IMG/VR virus record: IMGVR_UViG_3300035670_000818
Coordinates: 1 to 33,122 of that record
Length of the DNA stretch: 33,122 nt
Source: a virus
Direction: 5' to 3' (one strand)
Positions within the stretch are counted from its first letter, which is position 1, and each line of letters starts with the position of its first letter. The position numbers and the translations under genes are program-made. Under the pieces are notes generated by a model. That model saw nothing but the letters and a program-made list of their open reading frames with translations. It ran no database searches and was not told the DNA's origin. Below, one piece after another: positions 22,446 through 26,971 of the stretch.

Positions 22446-22652
22446 TTAGACGGTGCGAGCCCTTTTCACGCGCTTGACCTTGACCGGCGCGGCGTCCACT
22501 CGCTCGGGGGGCCAGGGCTTCACGTCCGCGAGCGGCACGCGCTTGACGCCCTCGGGCAGCCGCACCCTCGCCCACTTGTAGCCCGACTCCACCAGGTAGC
22601 CGAAGCGGCACCCGTGCTTGCTGCGGAAGTACACCGTGTCACCAATGTTCAT
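22446..22652 (-). CDS. small SH3/KOW-like protein, 68 aa
   Basis: ATG 22652 follows the standard CCACGGAGGGC leader; an upstream in-frame ATG at 22718 would run through the tRNA gene. The first 45 residues (MNIGDTVYFRSKHGCRFGYLVESG, then KWARVRLPEGVKRVPLADV) read like a small SH3 or KOW-type barrel. The tail is very basic (KVKRVKRAR). It could bind RNA or DNA. It lies directly downstream of the tRNA and has no separate promoter box, so it is probably on the same transcript and separated by tRNA processing. Confidence 0.7.
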   Translation of the reverse strand: MNIGDTVYFRSKHGCRFGYLVESGYKWARVRLPEGVKRVPLADVKPWPPERVDAAPVKVKRVKRARTV

Positions 22653-22685
22653 GTCAGCCCTCCGTGGCTGTGGTTGGTAGTGCAG

Positions 22686-22759
22686 TACCCGGGGCGGGAG
22701 TCGAACCCGCACTTGCATGAGTTTGAGTCATGTGCCTCTGCCAATTGGGCTACCCGGGC
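22686..22759 (-). tRNA. tRNA-Leu, anticodon CAA (short variable loop)
   Basis: The minus strand folds into a complete 74-nt cloverleaf. It has a 7-bp acceptor stem (one G-U at the end), a D arm with GG in the loop, a 5-bp anticodon stem CATGA/TCATG with loop CTCAAAC and anticodon CAA, a 5-nt variable loop, and a T arm GCGGG-TTCGACT-CCCGC with discriminator A73. CCA is not encoded. It reads UUG Leu codons, which are frequent in this genome. Bacterial leucine tRNAs normally have a long variable arm, which is missing here, so charging by the host LeuRS is not assured. The D arm has TAGCCC where TAGCTC is usual, matching the absence of AGCT. Confidence 0.88.
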
Positions 22760-22798: not shown

Positions 22799-23458
22799 TC
22801 ACTTGGGGTCGCGGGCCACCTCAACCATGTCCTCACCGCACACGGGGCAGCAGGGGGCAAGGCGCTCATCAAGCCACTTGCGCGTGATGTTGGCGCTCAT
22901 GTCGGTGCAACGCTGCGGGCACATGATTTTGATGAGGCGCGTGCCCTGCTTGGTGCGGCGGGTCACGTCCATCGCGGCGTGCGGGTACGGGCCAACCTGC
23001 TCAAGCACCCACTCCGCGAACTCCGCGAACACCGGCCCGGCGTAGGTGGCCGTTGGCTTGCCCGCCAGGTCAAGCGCACGCATGACGCGACGGAAGTGCT
23101 TGCCGTGCCCGGCCCACAGGCCAGCGACGTGGTGGGCAATCTCATGGCCGAGTACGTCAATGACGCCAGGCTCGCCGTCCTCGGGCTTGCCGAGCGGGTC
23201 ACTCAGAACCGGGCTGATGAAAATGACGCCAACCTTGTCGTCGGTGACGCGGGCATCCCACGCCTGGCCGATGGCCCCGGACTTGTGCGACTTGCGCCCG
23301 GTGTAGGGGCGGGTGCCGACAGGGAACCCGCAGGACACCCGGTACTCGGGAACCTCAAAGCCCATCATGCGCAGCACGTCGTTGATGTGCTGGCCGACCG
23401 CCATGAGCCAATCCTCACGGGTGGTGTACTTGGCGGTGTTGTCGGTGATGTTGTTCAT
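22799..23458 (-). CDS. SprT-like zinc metallopeptidase
   Basis: This 219-aa protein has the metallopeptidase motif HEIAH at residues 105-109 within DVLGHEIAHHVAGLWAGHGKHF; a third His in GHGKH is the likely third zinc ligand, as in SprT-type proteins. A C-terminal zinc ribbon follows (CPQRC, then CCPVCG near the end). SprT/Spartan-like enzymes cut DNA-bound or crosslinked proteins; the phage target is unknown. ATG 23458 follows the leader with CCACGGAGGG. The gene has its own promoter P3 and is divergent from the rightward recombination genes. It could remove proteins from phage DNA or degrade a host factor (inference). Confidence 0.8.
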   Translation of the reverse strand: MNNITDNTAKYTTREDWLMAVGQHINDVLRMMGFEVPEYRVSCGFPVGTRPYTGRKSHKSGAIGQAWDARVTDDKVGVIFISPVLSDPLGKPEDGEPGVIDVLGHEIAHHVAGLWAGHGKHFRRVMRALDLAGKPTATYAGPVFAEFAEWVLEQVGPYPHAAMDVTRRTKQGTRLIKIMCPQRCTDMSANITRKWLDERLAPCCPVCGEDMVEVARDPK

Positions 23459-23486
23459 GGTCGCCCTCCGTGGCTTCCGTGGTTGC

Positions 23487-23524
23487 TGACGGAGGGCACT
23501 ATACACGTCGTGCAAACGACGCAA
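23487..23524 (-). promoter_or_regulatory. promoter-leader module P3
   Basis: On the minus strand TTGCGT (23519-23524) lies 15 bases before TATAGT (23498-23503), which is followed by GCCCTCCGTCA and the shared ACGGAGG leader. It drives the SprT-like gene and is the left half of a divergent control region. Confidence 0.7.
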
Positions 23525-23793: not shown

Positions 23794-24620
23794 CCATCAT
23801 CAACCGCAGCGTGGTCACCAGCAACAGCGACAAGTTGCGCACCGACTCCGACCGGGGCCGGTTGTACACATGGGGTGACGAGCAGTTTCGTTCAGTCACC
23901 ACCATTCTCAACGCACTCGGCAAGCCCTGGCTCGGCGCGTGGGCTGCCAAGATGGTCGCGGAGTACGCCTATGACCGACGCGACAAGTGGCACGACATGA
24001 CAAAGGCCGAAGCGGTGCGCTTGCTCAAGGGTGCGCCGTGGGAGAAGCGCGACGCGGCTGGCGACGTGGGCACGGCGGTACACAAGGCCATTGAGGCGCT
24101 TGTGCTTGGTCAGACGCCGCCGCCCTACCCGGACGACATTGCTGACCACATGGGCCACTTCAACAGGTTCCTCACCGACTACCAGCCCACCTGGTACGCG
24201 GCTGAGGCTGCGGTGTTCAGCCGCACGCATAAGTACGCGGGCACGCTTGACGGCATCGTCGGCATCGGTGACGCCACCTACATCATGGACGTCAAGACCA
24301 GCAAGGCCGTGTATCCCGACACCTACCCGTTGCAGTTGGCCGCGTATGCTCATGCCGAGTTCATCGGACTGCCTGACGGAACTGAGGCGAGCCTTCCCGC
24401 CATTGACGGCGGACTCATCCTTCACCTGACGGCGGGCGGTTATGAGGTCATCAGGGTCAGGATTGACGAGGCGGTGTTTCACTCATTCCTGTATGTGCTG
24501 GCCGCATACCGCTGGCAGCAGGACACATGCAAGTCGGCGCTGATGGGGCAGTTGCCCGTGCCGGTGAGCGCCGTGGTTGACAAGGCCAAGGCGGAACTTG
24601 GCGCGACGGTGGAGGACTGA
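23790..24620 (+). CDS. PD-(D/E)XK nuclease, RecB/Cas4-like
   Basis: This 276-aa protein has the RecB-family nuclease pattern: GTAVHKAIEAL (about 94-104), AAEAAVFS with the first acidic residue, GTLDGI (Asp154), IMDVKTSK (Asp167 and Lys169), and motif QLAAYAHAE (Gln182, Tyr186). It would act as a DNA exonuclease or endonuclease in recombination or genome processing. It is translationally coupled to the 41-aa gene and followed at once by the Gp3-like gene. No helicase domain is present. There are no clear four-cysteine iron-sulfur ligands, so it is RecB-like rather than a full Cas4. Confidence 0.85.
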   Translation: MTIINRSVVTSNSDKLRTDSDRGRLYTWGDEQFRSVTTILNALGKPWLGAWAAKMVAEYAYDRRDKWHDMTKAEAVRLLKGAPWEKRDAAGDVGTAVHKAIEALVLGQTPPPYPDDIADHMGHFNRFLTDYQPTWYAAEAAVFSRTHKYAGTLDGIVGIGDATYIMDVKTSKAVYPDTYPLQLAAYAHAEFIGLPDGTEASLPAIDGGLILHLTAGGYEVIRVRIDEAVFHSFLYVLAAYRWQQDTCKSALMGQLPVPVSAVVDKAKAELGATVED

Positions 24621-24621
24621 C

Positions 24622-25626
24622 ATGGGCATCATTGACCTTCAACGCCGCTTTGTGGAAATCGGGCGCATCCGTGCCGGTGCCAAGTCGGCCAAGGGCGCAC
24701 CAACCAAGTTGGAGAAGTGGCGGCTCACCTCGGCCAACAAGCCCGCGCTTGAGGCCGCTGCCGCCATCTACGGCGGCGAGGTGCAGCCGTGGGAGAACGG
24801 CCCCAACCTTGGGCTGTGGCAATTGTTCACCGAGTCGGACACGCTGCGCGTCCTGGTGCCGCCGTCCGCTGAGCCGTACTCGCTGTGGTACGAGGCGTGG
24901 TCAGGCGGCGGGTGCGACAAGCGGTGTGACGGGCAGCGCGACGTGTTGAACGACGCGCCGTGTTCGTGCGACCCGGACAACAGGGCGTGCAAGCCAACGC
25001 TGCGCGTGTCGCTGATGCTGCCCGACCTTCCGGGCTTGGGTGTGTGGAGGTGGGAGGGGCACGGCATAAACGCCGCGCTTGAACTGCCCGCCACGCTTGA
25101 CCTCCTGGCGCACGCGACCAGCAAGGGCGAGTTCCTTCCCGGCTACCTGCGCCTTGAGCAGCGCAGCACCAAGAAAAAGGGCGAGGGCACGCGCCGGTTC
25201 GCGGTGCCGGTCATTGACCTGACGGCGACCATTGGCGAGGTGACCAAGGCCATTGGCGGGCCTGCGATTCCCGACGCGCCCGCGCTGGAATCCGGCGAAC
25301 GCCCGGCGCTGCCCGCGCCGCAGGCTGATACATCGCCCGCGAACGAACTTGCGAGTACCGCTCAGAAGCGACTCATTTACGCGACCGCCAAGGAAGCGGG
25401 CGTTGACCGCGAGTTGGTCGGGCGGATTGCCGCGATGGTCACCAATCGTCACGGCGCAGGACTGAGCGAACTTGCCAAAGCCGACGTTGACGTTGTGGTT
25501 CGGTCCCTTGGACGGTTCGGCAATGACGTGGCAGGGTCCACGGCCAAGTTGGAGGCATGGGAGGCGGCGCAGTCGCAGGCGGACGGCGACGCGTGGGGGC
25601 CAACCCCGCCCATCCCGTCCGCGTGA
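24622..25626 (+). CDS. Gp3-like protein (recombination directionality factor family)
   Basis: The 334-aa product matches the phiC31 Gp3-like family pattern: GIIDLQRRFVEIGRIRAG at the start, then LEAAAAIYGGEVQPWENGP, LWYEAWSGGGCDKRCDG with a Cys-rich part (CSCD, then CKP), MLPDLPGLGVWRWEGHGINAA, and LEQRSTKKKGEGTRRFAVPVID. In phiC31 this factor switches the serine integrase to excision. Here the integrase is a tyrosine enzyme, so the protein may instead have a general DNA role. The C-terminal 100 residues (ASTAQKRLIYATAKEAGVD, then LAKADVDVVVRSLGRF) are an added helical domain like those on phage recombination proteins. Confidence 0.8.
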   Translation: MGIIDLQRRFVEIGRIRAGAKSAKGAPTKLEKWRLTSANKPALEAAAAIYGGEVQPWENGPNLGLWQLFTESDTLRVLVPPSAEPYSLWYEAWSGGGCDKRCDGQRDVLNDAPCSCDPDNRACKPTLRVSLMLPDLPGLGVWRWEGHGINAALELPATLDLLAHATSKGEFLPGYLRLEQRSTKKKGEGTRRFAVPVIDLTATIGEVTKAIGGPAIPDAPALESGERPALPAPQADTSPANELASTAQKRLIYATAKEAGVDRELVGRIAAMVTNRHGAGLSELAKADVDVVVRSLGRFGNDVAGSTAKLEAWEAAQSQADGDAWGPTPPIPSA

Positions 25627-25634
25627 GGGGTGCC

Positions 25635-25810
25635 GTGAGCGAGTTCCTAACCGTCAACGAGGCCGCTGCCAGGCTCGGCGTGCATCCGGTCACCGTGCGC
25701 AGGCACATACGCGCCGGGACCATCCGGGCCGTGCAGGTCGGGCGTGCTTGGCGCATCCCTGCGGCGGCGCTCAGCGATGGCTTCGGCCATCAGGTCAACC
25801 GGCCCGGTGA
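25635..25810 (+). CDS. excisionase-type HTH reading frame, 3' end unclear
   Basis: GTG 25635 follows GAGGGG and lies 8 bases after the Gp3-like stop. The first 52 codons give a clear excisionase/MerR-type winged HTH: FLTVNEAAARLGVHPVTVRRHIRAG followed by VQVGRAWRIPAAAL. Such proteins bind attachment sites and bend DNA for excision, or repress. The frame has no stop until 26886-26888 and runs through the whole integrase gene on the opposite strand, codon against codon. The end at 25810 is therefore only where recognisable sequence stops (it coincides with a TGA in another frame). Either the product is very long, or a stop has been lost, or there is a sequence error. Confidence 0.6.
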
Positions 25811-26810
25811 GCCGCACGTCCTCAAGAACGTGGGCGTAGGTGTCAAGGGTCATGCTGGCCGAGGCGTGCCCCAAGGCGGCGCTGACCGCGTGTACCGGGC
25901 GGCTGTACAGCATCAGGGTCGCGTAGGTGTGCCGCAGGTCGTATGGGACAGCGGTGACCTGCGCCTGCTCGCAGGCCCGCCGCCATTCGCGGCGCACGAA
26001 GTTGCGCCACACAAGCAGGCCCCCGCGTACCCCGGGGACGACGATGCCGCGACGCTGGCCGCGTGGCACATGCTCAAAATCGTCGCCAAGCGGTTGCTCA
26101 ATGGGGACTGCCCTGATGCGGCGTGTCTTGGTCGGGACAACCTGGCCGAACTGCGCCGAGCGGTCAACGATGATGCTGGCGGCGGTCACGTTTTCCCACA
26201 CAAGCCCGACCACCTCAGCGGGCCGCAGTCCCGCGTAGGCCAGCAGGCTTACGATGAGGCGGTCACGCGGGCATGTCATTGCCTTGCGAATGTCCTCCAC
26301 CTCGCGCACGGTCAGCGCACGGGGACGCGTGCGGAAGGCGGGCAGGGAACGGATGCCTGCCGCTGGATTGCCGGGGACAAGCCCCTCATCCACGGCACGC
26401 CCGAGGGCAGCCGACAGGACGGCCATGACGGCGTTGACGGTGCTGGCGCTTGCCTGGCTGGCGAGGTGGTCCCGGTACTCGCGCACGCGGGCGGGGCCGA
26501 ACTCGCGCAGCGGGACATGGCCGACATGGGCAACGACGTGCTTGGTCAGAATCCATCGGCGTTGGCGGCGGGTGGTTTCGGACCACCCCGGCCCGTAGCG
26601 GTCCTGCCAGCGGTCAAGCCAATCGGCCAGCGTGTCGGCGGTGGCAAGGACGGGCGCGAAGGCCCCGAGTTCCCTGCGGCGCAGCCGGTCAGCCTCAAAG
26701 GCAACGGCGGCGTCGTAGGTGCGGAAGTTGCGGCCACGGGCCTTGCCGCCCTCCCGCCAACGGACCCGCCAGGTTTCCCGGTTCGCGTCCGGGCGTCGCT
26801 CAATGCTCAC
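25647..26810 (-). CDS. int: tyrosine site-specific integrase
   Basis: This 387-aa integrase has an N-terminal arm-binding region (about 1-55), a core-binding SAM-like domain (about 56-150, with LADWLDRWQDRYG and SASTVNAVMAVLSAAL), and a catalytic domain. The catalytic residues are Arg196 (AGLRPAE), Arg293 (YDLRHTY; the box II His is Tyr, as in many actinophage enzymes), His315 (LGHAS) and Tyr325 (DTYAH). It joins attP to the host attB. The last 47 residues beyond the catalytic fold are antisense to the HTH gene and Pro/Gly-rich, so they are probably passenger sequence. The start is GTG 26810 with a promoter 3-10 bases upstream, giving an almost leaderless mRNA. Confidence 0.93.
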   Translation of the reverse strand: MSIERRPDANRETWRVRWREGGKARGRNFRTYDAAVAFEADRLRRRELGAFAPVLATADTLADWLDRWQDRYGPGWSETTRRQRRWILTKHVVAHVGHVPLREFGPARVREYRDHLASQASASTVNAVMAVLSAALGRAVDEGLVPGNPAAGIRSLPAFRTRPRALTVREVEDIRKAMTCPRDRLIVSLLAYAGLRPAEVVGLVWENVTAASIIVDRSAQFGQVVPTKTRRIRAVPIEQPLGDDFEHVPRGQRRGIVVPGVRGGLLVWRNFVRREWRRACEQAQVTAVPYDLRHTYATLMLYSRPVHAVSAALGHASASMTLDTYAHVLEDVRLTGPVDLMAEAIAERRRRDAPSTPDLHGPDGPGAYVPAHGDRMHAEPGSGLVDG

Positions 26811-26931: not shown

Positions 26932-26971
26932 TGGGCGCTCGGGGAATCGAACCCCGGACCTCCAACTTGTC
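26932..26971 (-). other. attP: attP core: 3' half of tRNA-Val(GAC)
   Basis: Read on the minus strand, 40 bases from GACAAG to GCGCCCA are the 3' half of a tRNA: anticodon GAC, the 3' anticodon stem, variable loop AGGTC, T arm CGGGG-TTCGATT-CCCCG, acceptor strand AGCGCCC and A73. The base at position 33, which must be T in a real tRNA, is C, and no 5' half is present, so identity to a host gene should begin at the anticodon. This is the classic attP design that restores the host tRNA after integration. It lies 122 bases upstream of the integrase start. Confidence 0.82.

Follow-up and report, generated by a model that had tools for sequence, protein, structure and literature searches.

A short-armed tRNA-Leu(CAA) in an AGCT-avoiding phage is probably an ordinary accessory leucine tRNA

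Why does a phage carry a single tRNA gene that reads UUG, and does the product of that gene still insert leucine? The question is raised by the linear 33,122-base IMG/VR record IMGVR_UViG_3300035670_000818 (the window, by which we mean this whole stretch of DNA), which reads as a temperate siphophage and whose only tRNA gene is the following:

22686..22759, minus strand: tRNA-Leu(CAA), 74 nucleotides (nt), found by ARAGORN and by Rfam RF00005 and readable as a cloverleaf.

ARAGORN sets its bounds at 22685-22759 and Rfam RF00005 at 22686-22759, both on the minus strand. The two programs bear out the anticodon CAA, the five-base variable loop and the G-U end pair described in an earlier sequence-only reading of this DNA, which had not stated the strand; the structure-based scoring proposed there gives 58.9 bits with the Rfam tRNA model. 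The variable loop is CAAGT, the end pair is G1-U72, position 15 pairs with position 48 as A15-U48, the discriminator base is A73 and CCA is not encoded.

We searched the named phages by blastn with the window tRNA and obtained 180 records, of which 13 were fetched. All 13 hold a tRNA-Leu of 74-78 nt, with anticodons that include UAG, UAA, CAA and GAG, and their hosts are Gordonia, Rhodococcus, Cronobacter, Mycobacterium, Myxococcus, Streptomyces, Synechococcus, Enterococcus and Vibrio. Phage Phabba encodes two long-armed tRNA-Leu in addition to its short one. The D arm of the window tRNA, GCCCAATTGGCAGAGGC, recurs in the UAG tRNA of Gordonia phage Keelan and the UAA tRNA of Cronobacter phage S13, and a looser form of it is found in the CAA tRNAs of Myxococcus phage Mx1, Mycobacterium phage Knocker and S13. 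These tRNAs of Keelan, S13, Mx1 and Knocker resemble that of the window in their length of 74-78 nt, their short variable loop ending in T, A73 and a leucine anticodon, but differ from it in their stems and anticodons. Moreover, many phages with a short-armed tRNA-Leu carry tRNA arrays, whereas the window has a single tRNA.

A scan of IMG/VR with the 5′ half of the tRNA only, and hence blind to the anticodon, matched at least 119 stretches; the counts that follow are from the new loci L076-L166. Among the matches listed there, 92 sites yielded 79 clean cloverleaves, each of which has a leucine anticodon (CAA 33, UAG 26, UAA 9, GAG 6, AAG 4, CAG 1), T48 and A73. Their variable loops measure 4-7 nt, and 30 of the 79 have G1-U72. 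Since they are seen across this anticodon-blind scan, the G-U end pair and the short loop are traits of a family, and the window tRNA fits that family as delimited here, namely by a short loop ending in T48, a tRNA-Leu D arm, A73 and a leucine anticodon. Two of the 13 non-clean sites among the matches listed are read as tRNA-Leu by ARAGORN; most of the long tRNA-like elements described at the end of this text are among the remaining 11. The 46 loci L030-L075 were excluded from the anticodon-blind count because their search pattern effectively fixed 34=T and 36=A; when they are added, 124 of 138 sites among the matches listed are clean, all of them leucine.

We then sampled phages without regard to leucine, picking 120 phage loci by their tRNA-Tyr. 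In this sample 45 of the 110 parsed tRNA-Leu are short (two more could not be parsed, and one short parse, in L214 with a variable loop of 3, is doubtful), compared with 1 of 84 tRNA-Ser and none of 101 tRNA-Tyr. The short share by anticodon is 19/26 for CAA, 16/40 for UAG, 9/38 for UAA, 1/1 for AAG, 0/3 for GAG and 0/2 for CAG. Arm loss among phage tRNAs is thus common and specific to leucine, a measured pattern that takes the place of a would-be recoding tRNA and amounts to a testable statement about what leucyl-tRNA synthetase (LeuRS) tolerates. The short-armed accessory tRNA-Leu is a widespread but little-remarked kind: our literature search did not find a phage-wide family of this sort described. 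A short-variable-loop tRNA-Leu(TAG) in Mycobacterium mucogenicum and M. phocaicum lies in a tRNA cluster judged to be horizontally acquired (PMC6582537); like the window tRNA it is short-looped, but it has the anticodon TAG and is chromosomal, and the available part of that report draws no wider family. A human tRNA-Leu-CAA without the arm has been listed as one of doubtful isotype (PMC8450103, available in part).

Which amino acid, then, does such a tRNA carry? For E. coli LeuRS, the portion of PMC9976931 at hand gives A73, A15-U48, G18G19 and A20a as essential and the long arm as dispensable. The window tRNA carries all of these, that is, A73, the trans-Levitt pair A15-U48, G18G19 and A20a. 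The combination of A15-T48, A73 and A20a is present in 95/96 and 48/51 short-armed tRNA-Leu and in 10/12 long-armed ones, as opposed to 54/616 other class I tRNAs from the same loci. The suggestion that the gene is a converted class I tRNA is contradicted by these determinants and by a family in which all 79 clean members listed have leucine anticodons. The same evidence bears on the proposal that UUG is reassigned by a tRNA carrying an amino acid other than leucine. A class I shape combined with a leucine anticodon speaks for such recoding, as does the similar tRNA of Knocker that is annotated as tRNA-Gln(caa). However, when the window's proteins are aligned with 11 related records, leucine stands opposite its TTG positions in 64.3% of 272 pairs where the preceding codon is not one ending in AG (hereafter xAG: AAG, CAG and GAG) and in 55.1% of 178 pairs where it is; for its CTN positions the share is 61.0% of 2046 pairs. 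Leucine is conserved at TTG positions as it is at CTN positions and UUG is, therefore, not recoded; we consider a reassignment extremely improbable. In the case of Knocker (L021, 624-698), the record names the short-armed CAA tRNA tRNA-Gln(caa) while ARAGORN names it tRNA-Leu, an example of how annotators and isotype models may misname short-armed tRNA-Leu.

The explanation that we favor, with a probability of about 0.7, is that the window tRNA is an ordinary accessory tRNA-Leu(CAA) that the phage brings along, one of those with a short variable arm. The host LeuRS would charge it with leucine through A73, A15-U48, G18G19 and A20a and would not need the long arm; while the phage grows, the tRNA would supplement the one with which the host itself reads UUG, and UUG would remain leucine. 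Four observations weigh against this explanation. The minimum-free-energy fold of the tRNA falls short of a complete cloverleaf. No sigma-70-like promoter was found near the gene, which says little for an actinobacterial host, and such a host is likely because the closest named phages by exonuclease are one Actinomycetia phage and one Streptomyces phage (39-40%). Two scans of genome contigs for the bacterial attachment site (attB), using the tRNA-Val-like 3′ half described below, gave 0 matches, which bears on the host and on its own supply of UUG-reading tRNA. Finally, the data on leucine identity, as far as the source at hand goes, come mostly from E. coli and not from the window's host.

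The sequence-only reading had called the short arm odd for a leucine tRNA. This is right in so far as the long arm of a canonical bacterial class II tRNA is absent, but the form is common in phages (the 45 of 110 above) and apparently normal in some bacteria. A Tsukamurella record contains a complete short-armed tRNA-Leu(CAA) adjoining a prophage integrase, and at a distance of 10 kb the 3′ half of this tRNA recurs as an exact copy of 47 nt. The phage attachment site (attP) of cluster J phage Baka carries a tRNA-Leu 3′ half whose variable loop has 5 nt, and its 44-bp core, whose left end lies in the anticodon loop, is identical to the M. smegmatis tRNA-Leu gene Msmeg_3245, according to the part of PMC3706429 at hand. 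Because this identical core has a 5-nt variable loop, the tRNA-Leu-CAA of M. smegmatis itself appears to be short-armed. These native tRNA-Leu-CAA of the Mycobacteriales (Msmeg_3245 at attB-11, and Tsukamurella L297) share with the window tRNA the anticodon CAA and the 5-nt loop, and in Tsukamurella also the D arm. They differ in that they are borne on the chromosome or at a prophage junction and serve as integration target, while the window's copy lies 3 kb from the integrase and off the putative attP. In the Tsukamurella stretch L304 (37308-48989), which has two integrases and the exact 47-nt copy of the core, a short-armed tRNA-Leu(CAA) serves as an integration site that is apparently used in tandem.

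A phage tRNA could also serve anti-defence, for which a precedent exists (PMC13096335, available in part): the tRNA would stand in for host tRNA-Leu that a tRNA nuclease of the host has destroyed, and for want of the arm it would escape nucleases that cleave long variable arms. Among phage tRNAs, loss of the arm is indeed confined to leucine, the one class whose synthetase tolerates the loss (for the tolerance, see the part of PMC9976931 cited above). However, phage tRNA-Tyr and tRNA-Ser have kept their long arms, as counted above, and the short-armed tRNA-Leu that is apparently native in mycobacteria needs no defence to account for it. To our knowledge, no phage-defence nuclease is aimed at the arm of tRNA-Leu, which also counts against this role, and we judge it very improbable.

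If the tRNA is an ordinary accessory one, is it linked to the site avoidance of the genome? AGCT does not occur in the 33,122 bases, compared with a shuffle mean of 81.4 (standard deviation 9.1) and a Markov expectation of 90, so the avoidance reported by the sequence-only reading is real. Beyond that reading, GATC is avoided as well, with 0 observed and 72 expected sites (Markov), and further words are depleted: TCGA 23/96, TGCA 70/151 and ATAT 0/12. GATC is wholly absent only in the window and in the relatives L002 and L010, whereas avoidance of AGCT is common to the clade. AGAG, too, is rare on the plus strand (7 versus 46 expected), and CTCT, its complement, is depleted to a lesser extent (5 versus 14).

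Codons were counted in 38 hand-chosen open reading frames (ORFs; 9577 codons). After xAG, where CTN would create AGCT, leucine is written 47 times as TTG, once as TTA and never as CTN. TTG is therefore not quite the only leucine codon in this position, as had been claimed, but the claim that avoidance forces it there holds, and the avoiding relatives show the same pattern. In other contexts TTG makes up 77 of 687 leucine codons, which gives 124 of 735 overall; 47 of these 124 stand where the avoidance permits no CTN. AGC is followed by T in 0 of 181 cases and a codon ending in A by GCT in 0 of 64. A second escape is also used, in which the Lys, Gln or Glu codon before leucine ends in A rather than in G: automatic ORFs of the window contain 38 xAG+TTR, 0 xAG+CTN, 37 xAA+CTN and 1 xAA+TTR. 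The earlier expectation of a rare TTG at 64% GC is borne out only partly. Outside xAG its share in the window depends on the ORF rule, being 11.2% (the 38 chosen ORFs), 14.4% and 15.2% (automatic), and the relative G018 (61.6% GC), which does not avoid AGCT and in which no tRNA was found, likewise reaches 15.2% under the same automatic rule.

The relatives comprise 15 records found via TerL and three found via the exonuclease; many are fragments, and their ORF sets are automatic. In stretches of 11 of the 15 TerL relatives (L002-L011 and L014) there are 0-2 AGCT sites versus 9-35 expected, and one of them, L002, is a 10.5-kb contig whose TerL is identical to that of the window. The other four, at 39% TerL identity, do not avoid AGCT. 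Two of the three exonuclease relatives avoid it and the third, G018, does not. A tRNA was found in none of the 15 and three records, many of them fragments. Seven avoiders, G002, G003, G006, G007, G008, G016 and G017, with 0-3 sites each and no tRNA found, were compared for leucine after the Lys, Gln and Glu codons of the xAG form. Their ratios of TTR to CTN are 30/0, 6/0, 12/0, 15/1, 11/1, 22/0 and 16/0, respectively, whereas those of the non-avoiders are 9/84 in G018, 1/66 in L012, 0/16 in L015 and 0/36 in L016. ARAGORN reported a 'tRNA-???' in G003, which was rejected for want of Rfam support. Since seven avoiders obey the TTG rule with no tRNA found, avoidance with forced TTG works without the tRNA. 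Avoidance of AGCT is a separate, clade-wide trait that does not depend on the tRNA and suffices to force TTG after xAG; throughout a whole phage clade, the leucine codon after xAG is thus dictated by the strict avoidance of a single 4-mer.

These data bear on the idea that the tRNA is retained to cover the translational cost of the avoidance, an xAG-Leu pair being writable only with TTG. That 47 of 48 such pairs carry TTG, within the overall TTG load given above, is in its favor. A more elaborate form would run as follows: strict avoiders can write Lys-, Gln- or Glu-Leu as xAA+CTN or as xAG+TTG, a phage tRNA for UUG would tilt the choice towards TTG and be kept as payment, and a short-armed body would be suitable as the host LeuRS ignores the arm. 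In line with this, the window has xAG in 38 of its 76 Lys/Gln/Glu-Leu pairs, versus 84 of 303 in six avoiders in which no tRNA was found (p=0.0003) and 38 of 113 in two GC-matched avoiders (p=0.034); these shares count one xAG+CTN pair from G007 and another from G008. The higher retention of xAG is, however, a weak hint and not support, because G002, a close relative at 89% TerL identity, equals the window (30/59), and its covered sequence does not include the tRNA site. Moreover, four of the seven rule-abiding avoiders (G003, G006, G007 and G016) do cover the neighbourhood of the tRNA. Phages elsewhere in IMG/VR that have a CAA tRNA are near-normal in AGCT, with a median observed/expected ratio of 0.80 over 29 loci compared with 0.93 over 42 loci with a TAA tRNA, and ratios below 0.3 occur in 3/29 and 2/42 loci, respectively. 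A single tRNA-bearing genome, finally, is unable to show a correlation. The earlier claim that the tRNA pays for avoidance is thus not supported by the relatives or by CAA-tRNA phages elsewhere. We hold retention as payment to be unlikely, and the more elaborate form with the tilted codon choice is doubtful to the same degree.

Could the accessory tRNA-Leu instead be needed for lysogeny? The window has the following features at its integration locus:

25647..26810, minus strand: tyrosine integrase (PHROG 1, Pfam PF00589).
26932..26971, minus strand: putative attP core, a short way upstream of the integrase; by reading of the sequence, its 40 nt are the 3′ half of a gene resembling tRNA-Val(GAC).

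In phage Gaia, lysogeny is tRNA-dependent and acts on tRNA-Leu-CAA (PMC10865867, of which a part was available); by analogy, the window's integrase would disrupt the host tRNA-Leu-CAA and the phage tRNA would substitute for it. Both phages are temperate and have a tyrosine integrase and a phage-encoded tRNA-Leu-CAA. In addition, relatives aligned gene by gene lack both this integrase and the tRNA, G017 having only an integrase of 27% identity. However, Gaia integrates at tRNA-Leu-CAA with an 8-bp core (same part of PMC10865867), whereas the putative attP of the window has a 40-nt piece of a tRNA-Val-like gene, which is long enough for the target to be rebuilt, and the longest matches between the window tRNA and the flanks of the integrase are 8 nt. 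The putative attP contains the anticodon GAC, half of the anticodon stem, the variable loop, the T arm, the acceptor half and A73, and the phage records that match its core in blastn, if only weakly (E 0.08), are annotated as tRNA-Val in 3/3 cases. The target seems to be a tRNA-Val that is rebuilt on integration, and the leucine tRNA would therefore not be needed for lysogeny. Lysogeny of the Gaia type is thus a distinctly remote prospect for the window.

Besides the tyrosine integrase, the phage genes of the window include those for terminase, portal, protease, major head protein, tape measure, exonucleases and a Gp3-like factor. Megablast of positions 1-25000 of the window against phages gave zero matches. 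The neighbours of the tRNA and the Gp3-like gene are:

22446..22718, minus strand: small ORF 3′ of the tRNA, without a PHROG match, with homologues in G006, G007, G008 and L311.
22799..23524, minus strand: ORF that precedes the tRNA in the same orientation; it belongs to PHROG 6361, of unknown function, and has a SprT-like match under the Pfam cut-off.
24577..25626, plus strand: Gp3-like protein resembling a recombination directionality factor (Pfam PF18897).

The listed start of the small ORF overlaps the tRNA, and from the sequence a start near 22652 is likelier. A search for further relatives via the SprT-like ORF gave 82 pattern matches, 0 of which were confirmed.

Two further observations concern other tRNA-like genes. 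A Curtobacterium plasmid with a MobF relaxase has five tRNA genes in a row (L295, 4904-5399), for Lys, a short-armed Leu UAA, Gln, Met and Thr; all five are missing from its listed annotation, a gene table that has no RNA genes. Moreover, twelve IMG/VR loci (L089, L094, L095, L145, L146, L149, L154, L166, L325, L329, L335 and L340) contain tRNA-like elements of 135-148 nt. These gave zero Rfam matches at the gathering threshold in the seven loci searched, and in alifold little outside the D and T arms is supported. They have the D arm of tRNA-Leu, a T arm and an end resembling that of an acceptor (...CT), and often directly follow another tRNA; the anticodon arm is replaced by about 75-80 nt in which YTCGC and an ATCGA-like motif recur.
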